NCBI RefSeq assembly: GCF_040362765.1
Contig: NZ_BAABWK010000001.1
Coordinates: 248,001 to 312,000, forward strand
Reading direction: 5' to 3'
Source: Pyruvatibacter sp. HU-CL02332
GTDB taxonomy: Bacteria; Pseudomonadota; Alphaproteobacteria; CGMCC-115125
DNA length: 64,000 bases
Shown one piece after another: positions 12,226 through 21,260 of the stretch. The notes under the pieces are model-generated. The model was not told the DNA's origin and did no database searches. It saw nothing but the letters and a program-made list of their open reading frames with translations. The position numbers and the translations under genes were made by a program. The stretch's first letter is position 1; each line of letters starts with the position of its first letter.

Positions 12226-14499
12226 TTGCCGGACCGCCCCCTTAAACGTCCCCTCCTCGCAAGACCGCTCAACGGCCCGCAGGATGGCGAAAAATCAGAC
12301 GCCACATCTCAAAACCGCGATCCACAGACAGCAGGATTGCGGCCAACCGTCAGTGATTTTGGAGACCCAAAAAAGTCGGCCACGCCGCCAAAACAGCAGG
12401 TGAACGAGCCTGCAGCACCTCCGGCATCGCCAAAGCCCGCAGCAAAACCGACCGGGCAGACCGAGAACCAGCCTGACGACACAGATGAAGAGCTGTTTGA
12501 ACGGCGAATCGTTCCAGAGCCCGCAACACGCCAGCGCAAGGCGCCGGTGCGGATGCGTGGCCCGCGCAAGCCGTCCCCCATGCCGCTTTATCTGGGCGCC
12601 ATTGCGAGTGCGTTTTGGACCGGCATCATGTTCGCTTACGCGGTTGGCTATTACGGCCCCGGCGGCCTGTTGATACTGCCGCCCGTAGACGTGGCACTGC
12701 TTGCTGCCGCCCTCTTCGCCCCCCTCGCCATCATCTGGGGATTTGCCAGCATCATGTGGTGGGGCGCCCAGATGCGGTCCAGTGCGGAACACATGGCGGA
12801 AGCCTCCCGTGCCCTTCTTTCACCTGTTGAAACCTCTGCCGCAGCCACCGCCAGCGTCGGCCATGCCGTGTCCACGGAGATGCGCCGCATGGAACGCACG
12901 CTCAAGCAGGCTGAAGTCCGCGCGATGGAGCTGCGCAAGACCATCAATGGCGAACTCAACGGCCTTGAGGCGGCCAGTGCCCGCGCTGAAATGCGCGCGC
13001 GCACACTGCGTGACCTGATCGGCACCGAACGCAAGGCCCTGATTGAAACCGGCAAGGCACTGGAGCAGGAATCCGCCAGCGTTGTGGAAGCCACCCGCTC
13101 CCAGGTGGAGCTTGTATCAGGTGTCACCGGCCGCGCCGCCGAACAAATGACCGAAGCACAGGCTGGCATGGGCCGTGCCGGTGACTACCTCTCCAAGACC
13201 CTTGAAGCTGTCGCCCGCTCCGCCAAGGCTGTGCGCGAAAATGTTGAATCCCAGGCAGATCGTCTCGACGCCACCGCCGAACACGCGGTTGTGCGCGCCG
13301 GCGAATTGGCCATCAGCTTTGCAGATCAAAGCGAGGCCCTGAACCAGTCCGCCCGCACCCTGGCGGATGACAATGAGCGTGCTGTCCGCTCCTTCGCCGA
13401 GCAGCGCGAGACCCTGGACGCGCTGGCAGCCGACCTGCGCGAACGCGCCACCCAGATTGAAACAGCAATTGCCAGTCACTCCGACACAATCAATGAAGCC
13501 CTCGATACCGCTGACGCCAAAGCCATGGGGCTCGGCCCGCGGGTCACCCGTGAAGCTGAGAAACTGACCGCCGCCGCACGGGATGCCGCCAGCCAGATCG
13601 AACAGACAACCGGCCTGATGGAAAGTCGTGCCGTCGATATGCAGGCCCGCGTCGCTGATGCCACCGGACACCTGTCACAGGCCATCGACTTCTCAACCAA
13701 GAACGTGGATGCCAGCGGCGAACGTCTGCAGGCCCTGCTCAGCAATATCGGTTCCAGCGCCCAGAACGCCGCCAAGGACATGACCAGCGCCAGTGACGAA
13801 CTTGGCCATCGTCTCGAGCAGCTTCCAGACGAAGCCAGCGCTCAGGCAGAACGTCTGCGCGCTGTGATGGGCGAACAGATTGGCGCCATTGCCGCTGTTG
13901 CTGAATCTGTCGCCAATGCCCTTGAGCGCATGGGCCCGGGACCTGTTTCCGGCTCATGGCCACCGGCAGACCCGTTGGCTCAGCCATCGCCGACAGCCTT
14001 TGCGCCTGCCGCGTCCAGCGACGCATCCCCAGCTACGCCGACCAAGACAGAGACACCCACCCCCAATTCAGATGCCAAGTGGCGCCTCGGTGATGTTCTG
14101 TCCGCAGCGCGCGCCCGCGAAGACCGGGCAACCAATGTGCCCCGTGCAGCCCACCACATCATCGAAACGCTTCAATCCCTGTCCATCGACATTGATCGGG
14201 CATTGGAGGAGGAACCACAGGTCGAACTGTGGAAGCGCTATCGCGACGGCGAGCGCAATGTCTTCACCAAGCGGCTTGCAAGCCTCAAGGGCAAGGAACC
14301 GCATTCACTCATCGCAGAGCGCTATCAGAACAATGCAGAGTTTCGCGGAGATGCGGACCGGTACATGGCGCAGTTTGAGACCCTTCTTGCGGACGCCGCC
14401 GACAAGAACCCGGACGGTTTGCTGGCCGAGACATATATGTCGTCAGACATCGGCAAGGTCTATGCCCTGCTCGCAGAAGCGACAGGTCACGTCGGATAG
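12226..14499 (+). CDS. Two-TM, coiled-coil membrane protein, TipN-like architecture
   Basis: 757 residues in four parts: a Pro/Ala/Lys-rich cytoplasmic N-terminus (1-117), two membrane spans (about 121-142 and 155-179), a long Ala/Glu/Arg-rich coiled coil (about 185-580) and a linker leading to a conserved globular tail (about 620-757, AAHHIIETLQSLSIDIDRAL). The order resembles Caulobacter TipN, a polarity marker, and similar alphaproteobacterial proteins. This is architectural likeness, not proven orthology. It starts with TTG at 12226 behind AAGGA. It stands alone, convergent with the lipid-transport operon. Confidence 0.7.
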   Translation: MPDRPLKRPLLARPLNGPQDGEKSDATSQNRDPQTAGLRPTVSDFGDPKKSATPPKQQVNEPAAPPASPKPAAKPTGQTENQPDDTDEELFERRIVPEPATRQRKAPVRMRGPRKPSPMPLYLGAIASAFWTGIMFAYAVGYYGPGGLLILPPVDVALLAAALFAPLAIIWGFASIMWWGAQMRSSAEHMAEASRALLSPVETSAAATASVGHAVSTEMRRMERTLKQAEVRAMELRKTINGELNGLEAASARAEMRARTLRDLIGTERKALIETGKALEQESASVVEATRSQVELVSGVTGRAAEQMTEAQAGMGRAGDYLSKTLEAVARSAKAVRENVESQADRLDATAEHAVVRAGELAISFADQSEALNQSARTLADDNERAVRSFAEQRETLDALAADLRERATQIETAIASHSDTINEALDTADAKAMGLGPRVTREAEKLTAAARDAASQIEQTTGLMESRAVDMQARVADATGHLSQAIDFSTKNVDASGERLQALLSNIGSSAQNAAKDMTSASDELGHRLEQLPDEASAQAERLRAVMGEQIGAIAAVAESVANALERMGPGPVSGSWPPADPLAQPSPTAFAPAASSDASPATPTKTETPTPNSDAKWRLGDVLSAARAREDRATNVPRAAHHIIETLQSLSIDIDRALEEEPQVELWKRYRDGERNVFTKRLASLKGKEPHSLIAERYQNNAEFRGDADRYMAQFETLLADAADKNPDGLLAETYMSSDIGKVYALLAEATGHVG

Positions 14500-14515: not shown

Positions 14516-15178
14516 CTAGCTTGCCGGCATAGCCTGATTGCTTGTTTCAGTAGCCCACACAACAACGTCACGTACGACGCTTTGCGCTGCCACATTCATA
14601 GCGGCCACCACATCGGCAACCGTGTCTGACCCAGCGGCCTGACGGGCCTCGAATGTGCGTCCGTCCAGGACTTTGCGCCCATCAAGCCAAATGACTTTCG
14701 CACTGAGACGCACCACGACCATGGCTGTCGCTGCGCCGTCGCCAGCAGGCGTCACCCGCGCTTCAAAATCGCGTAGATCGCTCACAAGCGCCACATTGGG
14801 CCGGACCGCCACAGATTGCCGCGACGCAGACATTTGCAATCCGGCGTGCTCAAAGCTTTCGACAATCAGGTCCTGCATCATGCGTGGCGCACGATCCGTC
14901 CAGCGTGCACCAGTGAAGTATTGCAGCGCATGCGGACCTGAATAGACCGCGATCCGGTCCGTATCCAGGGCACGCTCGGCAACCGGTTCTTCCACCATCA
15001 GCTGCCAGCCCGACGCGGACATGGCTGATGTGTAATTAGACGGTGCTGTTAGTCCATACAGTGTGCTCGCCGTATCTCCGCCGGGCAGAATAGTGGAACA
15101 CCCGACGGTCAAAACCGCCAAGGTCCCTGCCGTCAGCCCCACCTTGAGCAAAGACTTCACTCGTCGCGCCATCGTCAA
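14516..15178 (-). CDS. ABC-type transport auxiliary lipoprotein (PqiC/DUF330-like)
   Basis: 220 residues with a lipoprotein signal: basic n-region, hydrophobic stretch and lipobox LTVGC with the modified Cys27. The mature part fits the PqiC-like auxiliary lipoprotein family found with MCE transport systems. It would sit in the periplasm on the outer membrane and help an MCE protein hand over lipid. It is the last gene of the operon and overlaps the MCE gene by four bases. Confidence 0.82.
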   Translation of the reverse strand: MTMARRVKSLLKVGLTAGTLAVLTVGCSTILPGGDTASTLYGLTAPSNYTSAMSASGWQLMVEEPVAERALDTDRIAVYSGPHALQYFTGARWTDRAPRMMQDLIVESFEHAGLQMSASRQSVAVRPNVALVSDLRDFEARVTPAGDGAATAMVVVRLSAKVIWLDGRKVLDGRTFEARQAAGSDTVADVVAAMNVAAQSVVRDVVVWATETSNQAMPAS

Positions 15179-16065
15179 TTGCCATACTCCGCAGGCTCGT
15201 TGCCGAGCAAAAATTCAGTTGGGTTGCGTTCCAGTTCAACGACCAGCCGGTCAACAGATCCGATCATCCGCCGCGTATCGCGCAACAGCCGGTCCACCTC
15301 GGGAACGCTGCTGTTGGACAACTGGTCAAGGGCCGGACGCGTTTCTGCCACAAGCACGCGCGCATCTTCTGCGAGCGCCCCATAGGAGCCTGCCGCCTGC
15401 TCGATCTCGCCAACGGCACCATTCATCTTTTCAGTGATCTCGGCGATCTGCTCAGACGCCCGCGCCAGATTTTTGACGATCTGGTCGATCTCTTCGTGAT
15501 TGGACGCGATCGTCCCTGTCACGGTCTCAACATCGCGGACGGTTGCCGACAGCTGGCCTTCATTTTCACCCAGCAGTCGGTCAACACGCACCAGCAGGTC
15601 ATTGGCTGCGGTGAGGATCAAAGGCGCTGAAGTAATAAGCTGCTGCACAGCGGACCGGTCAGCAATGATGATGGGATAGTCGTTGTCGCCTTCCGCTTCC
15701 AGCAGCGCGCTGGTGGGGGTGCCACCGGTGATCTCGATGAAAGCCACACCGGTAATCCCCTGAAACTCAAGGCGGGCCTGACTGTCCACCTTGACCGGCG
15801 TTCGGCCATCCACATTGATGCGGACATTCACAAGACGCGGGTCAGCACCAAGGGCAATCTCGGTCACCTCGCCCACCTTGATGCCGTTGTATCGAACGTC
15901 ACCGCCTTCGGAGAGACCGGCGACAGACCCGTCAAAGATCACGTCATAGGCCTGTAGCTCCGCATCGCCTTCAAACCCGGTCAGCCAGACCAGAAACAGG
16001 AATGCAGCCACAACCGTGGCCGCCGAGAAGGCGCCAATCAGTATGTAATTTGCCCGTGTTTCCAC
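15175..16065 (-). CDS. mlaD: MCE family (MlaD-like) lipid-binding protein
   Basis: 296 residues with an N-terminal membrane anchor (METRANYILIGAFSAATV...) and a single MCE domain containing GGDVRYNGIKVGEV and GVAFIEITGG. A helical/coiled-coil C-terminus (about 150-275) is longer than in E. coli MlaD and closer to alphaproteobacterial forms. It should form a periplasmic hexameric ring carrying phospholipid between the permease complex and the outer membrane. It sits 24 bases after the ATPase gene. Confidence 0.9.
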   Translation of the reverse strand: METRANYILIGAFSAATVVAAFLFLVWLTGFEGDAELQAYDVIFDGSVAGLSEGGDVRYNGIKVGEVTEIALGADPRLVNVRINVDGRTPVKVDSQARLEFQGITGVAFIEITGGTPTSALLEAEGDNDYPIIIADRSAVQQLITSAPLILTAANDLLVRVDRLLGENEGQLSATVRDVETVTGTIASNHEEIDQIVKNLARASEQIAEITEKMNGAVGEIEQAAGSYGALAEDARVLVAETRPALDQLSNSSVPEVDRLLRDTRRMIGSVDRLVVELERNPTEFLLGNEPAEYGN

Positions 16066-16089
16066 GTTTTATCCGTCCTCTGACTTCCG

Positions 16090-16881
16090 CTAAGACGTTG
16101 CTCTGGCCACAGCACCAGCTGCCGCCCGGGACCTGGGCCCCTGAAAATACTCCTGTATCCACGCATCTGAATGCGTTGATACCTCACTTATGGGGCCGAT
16201 CACCATAACACGCCGTTCCGCCAGCACCGCCACACGGTCACAAATAGCGTAAAGACTGTCCAGATCATGGGTTACCATGAAGACCGTCAGCCCCAGCGCA
16301 TCCTTCAGTTGGCGGATCAACCCGTCGTAGTCCGCGGCACCAATGGGGTCGAGGCCTGCCGTCGGCTCATCCAGAAACACAATCTCCGGATCTAGCGCCA
16401 GCGCCCGTGCCAGCGCCGCGCGCTTGCGCATGCCCCCTGACAGTTCACTGGGGTGCTTTGGCCCTGCAGACGGGGGCAACCCCACCATGGCTATCTTCTC
16501 AGCCGCCAGTTCATCCATCAGCTTCTGCGGCAAATCGAGATGCTCGCGCATGGGCACCTGAACGTTCTGCGCCACTGTCAGCGCGGAAAACAGGGCACCA
16601 TCCTGAAACGCGACGCCCCAGCGCTGCTCAACCGCTTTACGTGCGTCACCCTCAAGCGATGCCACATCCTGACCAAACACCCGCACCGTGCCGGCATCAG
16701 GTCGTTTGAGACCCACAATCGTCCGCAGCAGGACGGATTTACCCGTACCTGATCCGCCCACAACTCCCAGTACTTCGCCCCTGCGCACATCCAAAGCGAG
16801 CTGGTCATGAATGACCTGGCTGCCGAACTGATTGCGCAGATTGCGGACCTGAATGATGTTTTCATGCTCCGCCATGCTCAA
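16090..16881 (-). CDS. mlaF: ABC transporter ATP-binding protein, MlaF-like
   Basis: 263 residues with Walker A GGSGTGKS, signature LSGGMRKRAALARAL, Walker B VFLDEPTAGLDP and the switch His in MVTHDLDSL. The GMRKR signature is typical of the Mla/MCE ATPase subfamily. It powers the lipid transporter from the cytoplasmic face. Its ATG overlaps the permease stop by four bases. The second methionine (MAEHENI) could equally be the start. Confidence 0.92.
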   Translation of the reverse strand: MSMAEHENIIQVRNLRNQFGSQVIHDQLALDVRRGEVLGVVGGSGTGKSVLLRTIVGLKRPDAGTVRVFGQDVASLEGDARKAVEQRWGVAFQDGALFSALTVAQNVQVPMREHLDLPQKLMDELAAEKIAMVGLPPSAGPKHPSELSGGMRKRAALARALALDPEIVFLDEPTAGLDPIGAADYDGLIRQLKDALGLTVFMVTHDLDSLYAICDRVAVLAERRVMVIGPISEVSTHSDAWIQEYFQGPRSRAAAGAVARATS

Positions 16882-18032
16882 TACCCAACCGCTGTAAAGA
16901 AGATGGCGAACAGGGCGTTGAGCACGATGACCGTAAAGATCGCTTTCACCACGGAAGATGTCGTCCGCTCACCCACGGATTCAGCACTGCCCGTTACCCG
17001 CATACCTTCAAGGCAGCCGATGACAGCAATGGCAATGGCCAGGAATGGTGCCTTGATGAGACCAACAAAAAACGTGTTCGAGGCCACGGCCACATCAACG
17101 CGCTGCAGATAGATCTGCGGCGAGATATCAAGCGCAAAATAGGTCACCACTCCGCCTCCAAGGAGACCCATGATGTCAGCGATAAAGGTGAGCACCGGCA
17201 GCATCAGCACCAGTGCAATCACCCTGGGCGCAACCAGAACAGCAATCGGATCCATGCCCAGCGTTCGCATGGCATCAATCTCTTCTCGCACCTTCATCGA
17301 GCCGATTTCAGCAGTGAAGGCACTGCCCGACCGACCGGCAACAATGATGGCGGTGATCAGCACAGCCAGTTCACGCAGCATCGAGATGGCGACCAGATTG
17401 ACCGTATAGACCTCGGCACCAAACAGTTTCAGCTGCGATGCCCCCTGCTGCGCAAGGACCGCTCCGATTAGGAAGGTCAGCAGCGCCACAATCGGAACAG
17501 CGTCGAGCCCCACACGCTCCATCTGGCTTACAACTGAGGTGAGCCGCAGCGTCCGTGGTCGGACGATGATCCGTCCGATGACAGCCATCACCAGACCCAC
17601 CATGTTGAGCATTGCCAAAAATTCGCTGACAAGCATTACAACGGCACGGCCCATGCGCTCTGCAATGGCTTCCAAAACCGTTCCGCGATCAGGCTCCACA
17701 TCGCAAGGCTGGTCGCTTTCTCGCGCCAGCTCAATCAGGCCCGATTGAGTGGCATTGGCCCCGCTGATCTGCACGTCAGCTCCAGCGTCAGTCAGATCGC
17801 GCTGGGTACGATGAACGATCCAGGCGCCGGCGGTATCAAGGGTGGTGACCTCGGAAAGATCGATCACCACACGTCCCTGCATATGACGCGGTGTATTGGA
17901 AACGGAGCTGGCAATCGCGCGCAGCGCCGCATCGTGCTCACCGACATTGCGCACGGTCCATGGACCGGACAGGTTTATCTGTCCGCCATCGGCAGTTTCC
18001 TGCGTTTCAAACCGCGCAAGCCCGCTGGTCAA
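16878..18032 (-). CDS. mlaE: MlaE-type permease with N-terminal STAS domain
   Basis: About 384 residues. The first ~110 form a STAS-like domain (VVIDLSEVTTLDTAGAWIV), and the rest is the MlaE permease with RELAVLITAIIVAGRSGSAF and EEIDAMRTLGMDP. In E. coli the STAS protein MlaB is separate; here it is fused. I chose TTG 18032 (MTSGLARFETQ) because GGGGG lies five bases upstream. A GTG at 18104 gives 24 more residues without a good ribosome site. It is the first gene of the operon mlaE-mlaF-mlaD-lipoprotein. Confidence 0.88.
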   Translation of the reverse strand: MTSGLARFETQETADGGQINLSGPWTVRNVGEHDAALRAIASSVSNTPRHMQGRVVIDLSEVTTLDTAGAWIVHRTQRDLTDAGADVQISGANATQSGLIELARESDQPCDVEPDRGTVLEAIAERMGRAVVMLVSEFLAMLNMVGLVMAVIGRIIVRPRTLRLTSVVSQMERVGLDAVPIVALLTFLIGAVLAQQGASQLKLFGAEVYTVNLVAISMLRELAVLITAIIVAGRSGSAFTAEIGSMKVREEIDAMRTLGMDPIAVLVAPRVIALVLMLPVLTFIADIMGLLGGGVVTYFALDISPQIYLQRVDVAVASNTFFVGLIKAPFLAIAIAVIGCLEGMRVTGSAESVGERTTSSVVKAIFTVIVLNALFAIFFTAVGY

Positions 18033-18229
18033 TGTAGCCCCCGAAATGACATGCCGGAGTGTGCCCGAAAGCGCAGTGAATAGGCAATCAACGCGCTGAA
18101 GCACCTGAACATATGATTACCGGCCCCCAAGCGTGCGCGGCATCGCAACGCATGGCCAGGGTCCCGACAGATGATTAAGGTCTTTGCAGTTCACGTGCTG
18201 CCCATGGTTTGCGACCCTTGGAGAAATCG

Positions 18230-18709
18230 ATGCTGAAATCCACCAAAACACTCGCCGCAGTTGCTGCTTTTGCCTTCACAGCAGCCATTGCAACCACCGC
18301 TCAGATTGCACCGGCAACGGCCGAAGATGCCGCTGCTGCGGACACGCAGATCGTCGGAGATCCCAAAAAAGGCAAGCGCGTGTTCAATCGCTGCAAGGCC
18401 TGCCACACCGTTGAAGAAGGCGGCCCAAACCGGGTTGGCCCGAACCTGTACGGCATTGTCGGCGCGGAATTTGGTCACCTTGAAGGCTACAATTACTCAC
18501 CAAATCTGCTGGAATTGAAGGCTGAAGGCAAAATCTGGGACGAAGCCACGCTTAGTGCCTACCTCAAGCAGCCAAAAGACGTCATTCCCAAGGGAACCAT
18601 GTCATTTGTAGGCCTGCCAAAGGAAAAAGACCGCGCCCATGTCATCGCCTATCTGGCGACATTCGGCGGTCCCGAAGCAGCACCTGAGGCAGCCGACCCT
18701 GCTCCATAA
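18230..18709 (+). CDS. Periplasmic cytochrome c (class I, c2/c550 type)
   Basis: 159 residues with a Sec signal peptide ([20 protein letters not shown]...), a haem site Cys55-Lys-Ala-Cys58-His59 and the probable axial Met124 in KGTMSFVGL. Pattern and size fit a class I soluble cytochrome c that shuttles electrons in the periplasm. It starts at ATG 18230 behind GGAGAAATCG. An Ala/Pro/Glu tail follows the haem domain. It is monocistronic as far as can be seen. Confidence 0.92.
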
Positions 18710-18920: not shown

Positions 18921-21260
18921 ATGAAGACGATACAGCTATTGCGACGCCTGGCGGCGGCGTTGGCGGGGCTTGCCCTCGCCGGCTGGCTTGTGCTCATGCA
19001 ATACGACCCGGCCAGCATCGCCACATCGGTTCGTCTGTCCGTCTTTGACTACTATCAAAATGCGGCCCCACGCGCCTATCGCGATCCGTCCATCTCGAGC
19101 GGTACCGGCGTCATCTATGTTGATGTGGACCGCGCCAGCCTGCAGCTCATCGGCCCCTGGCCCTGGCCGCGGACGCGCTTTGCAACGCTGACGGACAAGG
19201 CCTTTTCCCTTGGCGCACGCGCTGTTGTGTTCGAGCCCCCATTTGAGTGGCCGGACGCAACCTCTCCCGCAGAAGCAGTCCAGGAGTGGCTGGCCAATCC
19301 GGAACTGGACATGGATCAGATCGCCCGTCTGCAGGAAGCAGCAGGCGGCCTGCCCGACAATGACAGCGTTTTGGCCAATGCCATTTCCCGCGGCCCCGTC
19401 GTCACGGCATTCTCCTTGACCGACGAATCCAATTCTCTGGTTCCCGTGCGCAAGGCGCCCGTATCAGCCCGTGGCGGAGACATCGCTCAGTTCATTCCAG
19501 AGCGCGCCGGCATGTCCCCCAGCCTCAAATCGCTGGAGGATGTGGCATCAGGCAATGGTGCGCGCACGCTCTCCTCGGGCCCGGGCAATGACGGCGTCAT
19601 CCGTCAGGTGCCGCTTTTGCAGCGCGTCTCAGGGAACATCGTCCCAAGCCTTTCGGTTGAAGCTGTTCGTGTCGCCGAGGGCGCACGCGGCATCCTGAGC
19701 TTTGTCACCAAACCAGATGCAAATCTTGAATTTGGCCGTCGCCCCGGCGTGCAGCGCATTGTCGTCGGCAACAAGGAATTTCCAACCGATCCCGATGGCG
19801 GTCTGTGGCTGCACTACACAAAGGACGAACCGACCCGACACCTGCCCGCATGGAAGGTCCTTGGGGATCACCCAGACTCTGATCGCCTCAAGGGGGCCAT
19901 CGTCTTTGTCAGCGCCACCGTGCAGGGTGCGGAAGCCTTTGTAGAAACCCCCATTGGCAAAATGCCCCGCGTCGAAGCCCATGTGCAGATGCTGGAGCAG
20001 ATGCTGCTGGGTCACTATCTCTGGCGGCCTGACTGGGCACTGCCCGCTGAACAGGTTTATCTGCTGGTAACAGGCGTTGCTCTGCTTGCGCTGCTCATAA
20101 CCGCAGGCACAATCTGGGCAGCCCTCTTTGGCGTATTGGCGATAGGCAGCGTGCTGTGGGGCGGCTGGTTCGCCTTCACCTCCAAGCTTTGGCTGATTGA
20201 TCCAGCACTGCCGGTGACCGGCCTCATCATCGTGTTCCTGATCGGCTCAACGATGAACCTCATGCGCCGCAACGCCACCGAGCGTTTCATCCGCAGCCAG
20301 TTTTCAGACCGCCTGTCCCCCAAACACATCAACACGCTGGTCCGCAATCCAGAGGCTGCCGCTCCCAGTGGCCGCGGCTCCATGGTCACGGCTCTGTCAG
20401 CCGATGTGCGGGCCTTCCACCGCGTGGCTGAACCTTTCGGAGAAGACGCAAAGTCTCTTGCAAGCCTTGTGAACAACATTCACGAGCCGCTGACCCGCTG
20501 CGTGCTGCGTCACGACGGGATGGTGGACCGGTTTGTTGGCGGCGGCATAAACGCACTTTGGAATGCACCGCTAGAACGCACAGACCACACCATTCAGGCA
20601 GGCCACGCAGCCCTGCGCATGGTCGCAGAACTTGAGCCGGTCAATCGCGATCTGGAGCGTGAAGCCCAGCGCGCCCACCGCCCATTCATTCCCGTTTCCA
20701 TGAGCATCGGCATTGAGCGCGGCATGGCTGTTGTCGGCAATCTTGGCGCTGAAAAAGTCTATGACTTCTCAGGCATTGGCGGTGCGGTAAATGAAGCTCA
20801 GCTACTGCAGCGTCTGTCTCGCCAATATGGCCCGGCCATCATTGTCGGCGCCGACGCCCGTGACGAAATCAAAGACAAGTTTGCACTGCTTGAAATCGAC
20901 CAGCTGCGTCTGGACGGACGCATAGGCCCTTGGCGCGTTTACGCGCTGCTTGGCGATCCCATCATGGGAGCCAGCCCGAAGTTCAAGGCTCTGGACGAAG
21001 CCCACAACGCCCTCTTCAAGGCCTATCGCGCACGAGAGTGGAACACCGCTCGTCAGATATCAGCCCAATGCCGGAAACTCTCCGGTGCCATTCCAACGCT
21101 GTATGACCTCTATGACGAGCGCATCAAACGGCTGGAAACCAATCCGCCTGCGGATGATTGGGATGGCGTGCACGAAATTGCAGATCTGCTGTCGCCAGCA
21201 AAGTCGAAAGTCTCCATCGGCAAGCCGGAACCTGCCGAGCTCGGCGAAGCGCAGGTCTAG
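18921..21260 (+). CDS. CHASE2-domain class III nucleotidyl cyclase homologue with lost catalytic residues
   Basis: 779 residues: an N-terminal membrane span, an extracytoplasmic CHASE2 sensor domain (about 25-370), three further spans (about 375-450) and a class III cyclase domain (about 490-675). The first metal Asp is kept (D495 in LSADVRAF). The second is Gly541 in RFVGGGINALW, where active enzymes have GD. The base-selecting Asp is Gly621 and the transition-state Arg is Leu628 in GIGGAVNEAQLLQ, while Asn624 remains. It is therefore probably inactive, or an allosteric partner. ATG 18921 has AGGGG five to six bases upstream. Confidence 0.85.
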   Translation: MKTIQLLRRLAAALAGLALAGWLVLMQYDPASIATSVRLSVFDYYQNAAPRAYRDPSISSGTGVIYVDVDRASLQLIGPWPWPRTRFATLTDKAFSLGARAVVFEPPFEWPDATSPAEAVQEWLANPELDMDQIARLQEAAGGLPDNDSVLANAISRGPVVTAFSLTDESNSLVPVRKAPVSARGGDIAQFIPERAGMSPSLKSLEDVASGNGARTLSSGPGNDGVIRQVPLLQRVSGNIVPSLSVEAVRVAEGARGILSFVTKPDANLEFGRRPGVQRIVVGNKEFPTDPDGGLWLHYTKDEPTRHLPAWKVLGDHPDSDRLKGAIVFVSATVQGAEAFVETPIGKMPRVEAHVQMLEQMLLGHYLWRPDWALPAEQVYLLVTGVALLALLITAGTIWAALFGVLAIGSVLWGGWFAFTSKLWLIDPALPVTGLIIVFLIGSTMNLMRRNATERFIRSQFSDRLSPKHINTLVRNPEAAAPSGRGSMVTALSADVRAFHRVAEPFGEDAKSLASLVNNIHEPLTRCVLRHDGMVDRFVGGGINALWNAPLERTDHTIQAGHAALRMVAELEPVNRDLEREAQRAHRPFIPVSMSIGIERGMAVVGNLGAEKVYDFSGIGGAVNEAQLLQRLSRQYGPAIIVGADARDEIKDKFALLEIDQLRLDGRIGPWRVYALLGDPIMGASPKFKALDEAHNALFKAYRAREWNTARQISAQCRKLSGAIPTLYDLYDERIKRLETNPPADDWDGVHEIADLLSPAKSKVSIGKPEPAELGEAQV

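Follow-up and report, generated by a model that had tools for sequence, protein, structure and literature searches.

Class III adenylate and guanylate cyclases that carry a CHASE2 sensor occur in Alphaproteobacteria, for example in S. meliloti, according to the accessible part of a published account (PMC13001267). The protein analysed here, P0001, is encoded in a stretch of 64,000 nucleotides of Pyruvatibacter sp. HU-CL02332 (the window, whose positions are used throughout) and resembles these enzymes in its CHASE2 sensor, its helices, its predicted class III fold and its C-terminal helical tail; full-length CHASE2 cyclases of the same class recovered in the relatives search are 30-39% identical to it. 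Unlike these cyclases, none of the 64 distinct members examined from the clade to which P0001 is assigned below has the full combination of two metal-binding Asp, catalytic Asn and transition-state Arg (D/D/N/R), and the clade shows a YGPA[IV] and tail signature and often lies beside an mpc/mla operon. The solved cyclase CyaC of Spirulina platensis (1wc0, 1wc3 and 1wc4) is alike in fold, matching residues ~480-680 of the P0001 model with Z 21.7 and an rmsd of 2.0-2.2 over 190-194 residues (VIA-align), and differs in that it was solved with ATP analogues bound, whereas P0001 is without one metal ligand and without the transition-state Arg.

The genes next to P0001 also have a described counterpart. 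The mpcEFDA genes of Brucella abortus form a chimeric Mla-Pqi lipid transport system, and the operon beside P0001 is like it in having a STAS-fused MlaE, an MlaF, an MlaD longer than that of E. coli and a PqiC-like lipoprotein, as far as the accessible part of that source describes them (PMC12436622); the PqiC-like nature of the fourth Brucella gene is taken from the chimeric description and not from an alignment. The pseudo-cyclase is an addition at the present locus, the word 'cyclase' being absent from the main text of the Brucella paper. No description of the pseudo-cyclase clade was found in the literature searched, which lay mostly outside subscription journals.

We regard it as reasonably probable that P0001 is an old conserved pseudo-enzyme, that is, a CHASE2 receptor with a folded, selected cyclase domain that has no complete active site and that relays an envelope signal by contact.

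Frame, predicted fold and catalytic positions of P0001

The frame of P0001 is open over 779 codons from an ATG at 18921 to a stop ending at 21260, as the preliminary description of this DNA had reported, with a GTG five codons upstream as a possible alternative start (Table 1). The AlphaFold2 model, built from 27 clade sequences, has a mean pLDDT of 85.9 and a pTM of 0.67. The Pfam match to Guanylate_cyc (PF00211) covers residues 488-665 with 17.7 bits, below the family cut-off of 21.9. The cyclase fold is nevertheless predicted to be retained: Foldseek agrees with VIA-align on the model, the rows of the latter spanning mainly residues 451-681, which is the cyclase part.

Table 1. Features of P0001 and of the genes adjoining it (positions of the window)
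Feature	Position	Strand	Basis
PqiC-like auxiliary lipoprotein (ABC_trans_aux)	14516..15178	-	PF03886
mpcD/mlaD-like MCE protein, 296 aa	15175..16065	-	PF02470
mpcF/mlaF-like ATPase	16090..16881	-	PF00005
mpcE/mlaE-like permease, fused STAS domain	16878..18104	-	PF02405, E 1.6e-75; PF13466, E 1.7e-8
Class I cytochrome c, between pseudo-cyclase and lipid operon	18209..18709	+	PF00034
CHASE2 pseudo-cyclase P0001	18921..21260	+	Intact frame, 779 aa and stop
CHASE2 sensor domain, residues 24-391	18990..20093	+	Pfam PF05226, E 4.3e-40
Three long helices, residues 373-394, 397-422 and 429-461 (anchor and linker; putative membrane location)	20037..20303	+	AlphaFold2 model, block pLDDT 86-96
Class III cyclase fold (predicted), catalytically degenerate, residues 484-679	20370..20957	+	VIA-align against CyaC; PF00211 below cut-off
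D495, first metal Asp, retained	20403..20405	+	Alignment
R537, replacing base-site Lys	20529..20531	+	Non-redundant rows: Arg in 94% of the clade (16 rows), Lys in 100% of the canonical relatives (64 rows)
G541, replacing second metal Asp	20541..20543	+	Alignment
S617, presumed base-contact position, retained	20769..20771	+	Alignment; role of the position assumed
G621, 'base-selecting Asp' of the preliminary description	20781..20783	+	Differs among solved cyclases
N624, catalytic Asn, retained in the genus	20790..20792	+	Alignment
L628, replacing transition-state Arg	20802..20804	+	Alignment
YGPAII signature (clade motif YGPA[IV]), residues 636-641	20826..20843	+	GPA count in clade and relatives
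Helical C-terminal tail (residues 680-751), lying within the region of gained constraint	20958..21173	+	Entropy; AlphaFold2

We take the class III catalytic set to map on P0001 at residues 495 and 541 (metals), 537 and 617 (base site) and 624 and 628 (transition state), and these positions were checked on an alignment to the solved cyclases CyaC (1wc0), CyaB (3r5g) and Cya2 (2w01), all known to be active enzymes. The resulting set is D/G for the metals, R/S for the base site and N/L for the transition state, so that the pair of metal-binding Asp, the base-site Lys that accompanies Thr, Ser or Asp, and the Arg that accompanies the transition-state Asn are each incomplete. The identities of residues 495, 541, 621, 624 and 628 given in the preliminary description agree with this alignment. 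Its reading of G621 as a lost base-selecting Asp is rejected: the position is Pro in CyaC, Arg in CyaB and Ala in Cya2, and because the residue varies among these enzymes a change there says little. The base-contacting residue presumably stands seven positions before the catalytic Asn (D1018 and N1025 in mammalian adenylate cyclase, T1139 and N1146 in CyaC), which points to S617 in P0001, where all 105 distinct relatives of the same class outside the clade have Ser or Thr. The claim that most catalytic residues are lost holds as to real loss (541, 537 and 628) and goes too far as to extent, three of six positions being changed; the replacement of Lys537 by Arg had escaped that description. The argument against activity of P0001 lies in the loss of D541 and R628.

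The same-genus orthologues are 97, 86 and 77% identical to P0001 (the 86% one being cut by a contig end, at 660 aa), and D541G, K537R and R628L are common to all four genus members examined, which answers the earlier proposal to look at the conservation of the substitutions in orthologues. In the case of the cyclase domain, ω in the genus is about 0.02-0.11, with 0.019, 0.034 and 0.099 for P0001 against G003, G002 and G001, respectively; the sensor half gave 0.036, 0.079 and 0.177 in the same pairs, the cyclase domain being lower in each, and the ratios for G001 and G002 are rough because dS exceeds 1 in both. Within the genus, purifying selection acts on the cyclase domain more strongly than on the sensor, in keeping with the suggestion that selection retains the protein.

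The clade and its distribution of constraint

Loci were drawn from three sources: 105, mainly the best-scoring, from the relatives search (59 genomes) and the class search (385 genomes, with matches in 156, among those listed); 55 named loci found by a pattern in the tail of degenerate proteins, which therefore bear on the consistency of the clade and not on its frequency; and 29 from a phylum search. After 12 duplicates were dropped, the final set held 178 rows, P0001 included, with 64 in the clade, 105 of the same class outside it and nine of other classes of the same phylum. These sets are not random, flanks having been fetched mainly for the best-scoring loci, and the outside relatives were first sorted by the residue pattern itself; L251 and L254, with Thr at N624, stood first with the outgroup and were counted as same-class in the recount.

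D495, D541, N624 and R628 occur together in 0 of 64 distinct clade members and in 103 of 105 distinct same-class relatives outside, which have D/D/K/[ST]/N/R; the two exceptions, L251 and L254, depart from this set at N624 alone. Of the 64, 61 lack one or both metal Asps. The catalytic pattern of P0001 is more than chance, because the four genus members share it and no clade member has D/D/N/R. Trees of the sensor half, built on the CHASE2 and membrane part only and blind to the cyclase domain, placed the degenerate rows on one side of a branch both when unrooted (16 rows, 99/99) and with a same-phylum outgroup (19 rows, 100/99). In the outgroup-rooted tree the outgroup itself was not one side of a branch, L240 (one of the seven rows there) lying outside the rooting set and L255 among the canonical rows, and L145 was left out as a very long branch, being included in the unrooted tree. 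P0001 belongs to one old clade characterised by the degenerate state and seen in six family codes, the assignment of all 64 to it resting on the two trees, which include 16 and 19 of them, and on the GPA motif of 63. The preliminary description had named orthologues with intact residues as the sign of a recent decay; the degenerate state marks this old clade instead.

On the rooted tree the states change three times at D495, five at D541, three at N624 and four at R628. The losses differ by branch: D541 and R628 in the genus of P0001; D495, R628 and, with the exception of L188, N624 in family f10 (called Parvibaculaceae-type from proteins identical to named records) and the Parvibaculum-like named loci; D495 and, except in L218, N624 in the Rhizomicrobium-type branch; and both Asps in f4. 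L101, L103 and L197, three distinct members, have lost N624 but retain R628 and the two metal Asps. On these reconstructions catalytic residues were lost several times, in different combinations across branches.

Of the 64 distinct clade members, 63 have GPA at residues 637-639, as against none of the 105 distinct same-class relatives outside. Two changes on the tree fall at P638 and five at A639, the latter counting against a clean signature. To compare constraint, 16 clade rows were set against 300 draws of 16 from 64 canonical rows, all 60%-non-redundant and of equal size. Residues 661-751, which include the tail helices of the model (686-703, 707-719 and 725-740), had an entropy of 1.42 in the clade versus 1.71 (sd 0.07) in canonical relatives, none of the 300 draws being as low, whereas the CHASE2, linker and cyclase regions were more variable in the clade (300 of 300 draws lower). 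Residues conserved at 94-100% in the clade and atypical of relatives in the column comparison include R537, P638, A639, P686, F699 and G722. Constraint has shifted to the C-terminal tail in the clade, and partner binding is favoured for this reason.

The output of P0001 might instead be the binding of a nucleotide or cyclic nucleotide, as in a sensor of ATP or GTP level, rather than contact with a lipid transporter. The persistence of the cyclase fold and of many non-catalytic core residues fits such a sensor, and seven cNMP-binding-domain matches in the genome of P0001 leave room for cyclic-nucleotide signalling; against it, the residues of the catalytic pocket vary among branches, and of the four regions compared only 661-751 gained overall constraint, so that we consider this output unlikely. 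Fainter still is the chance that P0001 is an active or weakly active cyclase tolerating its substitutions. D495, N624 and S617 are retained, L101, L103 and L197 could keep some activity with their two Asps and R628, and Arg at 537 is found in seven same-phylum outgroup proteins with D/D/N/R intact; yet P0001 has neither a complete pair of metal ligands nor the transition-state Arg, nearly all clade members share the defect in the metal site, and, if selection maintained activity, one would not expect different catalytic residues to be lost repeatedly.

Neighbouring lipid-transport genes and other cyclases

The STAS-MlaE, MlaF, long MlaD and PqiC-like lipoprotein genes form one contiguous run on the reverse strand (14516-18104), and the cytochrome c gene adjoins the lipid operon both in the genus of P0001 and in Parvibaculaceae-type loci. 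Of the 59 clade loci whose upstream flank reaches at least 5.5 kb, 41 have a divergent MlaE no more than 5 kb upstream; once six duplicates are removed by hand the figure is 35 of 53, P0001's own locus, also linked, being outside both counts. The linked loci include family codes f1, f10, f92 and f4, and f137 is linked on a shorter flank; the 18 unlinked loci of the 53 all belong to the Rhizomicrobium-type branch. Because this branch is not beside the operon, the lipid transporter cannot be the general partner. Among canonical loci the same arrangement was found in 1 of 73, that one (L108) having a broken or partial cyclase frame, and an MlaE anywhere in the locus in 5 of 90, in each case divergent and upstream, with four at a distance of 6.6-7.2 kb. 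Since some canonical loci also have a divergent upstream MlaE, the comparison suggests that the active ancestor already stood in the lipid-operon region.

Several further genes were seen around these loci. At the far end of the lipid operon, positions 12226-14499 (+) encode a 757-aa protein without a Pfam family over cut-off, with partial matches of ~30-55% local identity in the corresponding position of f10, f4 and f92 loci; it could be an unrecognised component of the operon. In one f10 genome (L034 4738-8343, G012) a TRAP-type DctM protein (with DUF3394) and an NMT1_3 protein stand between cytochrome c and pseudo-cyclase. Two genes recur upstream on the same strand as the pseudo-cyclase in the Rhizomicrobium-type branch: one, common to 8 of 16 loci, is an ABC ATPase in the two loci checked (L213 and L222), and the other, common to 5 of 16, is an ABC-3 permease in the one locus checked (L213); these genes lie just upstream of the pseudo-cyclase at L213 3717-6819 and L222 5049-6074. 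An apolipoprotein N-acyltransferase-like gene precedes them in 5 of 16 loci (Pfam on L213 only).

The profile search of the genome of P0001 (G000) gave no PF00211 match besides P0001 itself. The pseudo-cyclase is likewise the only PF00211 match in G003 of the same genus, in G142 and in the four f10 genomes (G012, G145, G323 and G243), and G001, also of the genus, has none at all at E 0.001; no class I cyclase (PF01295) was found in G000, G001, G003 or the four f10 genomes. Seven other clade genomes (G006, G239, G007, G204, G372, G295 and G139) have a further PF00211 match, and G002, a fragmentary genus genome of 81% completeness, has one further partial match. Two other observations concern G000. 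A potassium-channel-like protein (by eye) with a C-terminal cNMP-binding domain is encoded at C1:183022-183270 (L039) and persists although the genome yielded neither a class I cyclase nor an intact class III one, and a 586-aa frame at C1:1591181-1591738 (L256) has one CYTH domain, possibly that of a triphosphatase and not of a class IV cyclase.

The active sites of class III cyclases are built where two subunits meet, and degenerate halves are found in the mammalian enzymes. P0001 might accordingly be a regulatory half that completes the active site of a catalytic partner in a heterodimeric cyclase, a role to which that precedent and the further PF00211 matches in the eight genomes just named would lend themselves. 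We hold it to be very improbable: a single chain has lost both D541 and R628, and a catalytic partner is unlikely in three genus genomes (G000, G001 and G003) and the four Parvibaculaceae-type ones because no other class III cyclase was found there at the sensitivity of the search, so that a catalytic heterodimer is disfavoured in these and possible in the seven with a further match. That P0001 is a decaying gene on its way to loss, as missing active-site residues and a PF00211 score below cut-off might hint, is scarcely credible, given frames open in genus members, a cyclase-domain ω below that of the sensor, and a clade spread over six family codes with a more conserved C-terminus, and recent decay is rejected on the ω values and this spread.

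A proposed mode of action

We return to the conserved pseudo-enzyme that relays an envelope signal by contact. The earlier suggestion of a pseudo-cyclase kept by selection is supported by the residues fixed in the genus, the ω values, the age of the clade and the predicted fold; as to its proposed action, P0001 may bind a nucleotide or a partner. Signalling is probably by contact and not by chemistry, because catalytic parts are lost, this state is kept across families and the gene often adjoins lipid-transport genes. Judged from its residues, P0001 would lack cyclase activity. The CHASE2 domain would read a periplasmic or envelope condition, the helices would pass the signal to a pseudo-cyclase dimer, and the output would be altered protein binding by the conserved C-terminal tail. 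The best candidate for the partner would be the divergently encoded Mpc/Mla-type phospholipid transporter, through MpcF or the STAS domain of MpcE. P0001 perhaps acts on this transporter, as genome linkage hints; gene adjacency can be inherited passively, which counts against reading linkage as function.

A wider proposal, which we put forward tentatively and consider possible rather than probable, is that this CHASE2 clade turned from a second-messenger enzyme into a contact device directly gating the envelope-spanning Mpc/Mla phospholipid transporter. Function would have moved to the tail first, and the active site would have eroded afterwards, in parallel among branches.

If P0001 and its relatives are what we propose, 'adenylate cyclase' is the wrong gene name for the clade. 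Conserved pseudo-cyclases standing alone in genomes from which no active class III enzyme has been recovered would demonstrate that this widespread receptor architecture can signal without cAMP, and the clade of P0001 is a concrete candidate for regulating outer-membrane lipid transport in Alphaproteobacteria.
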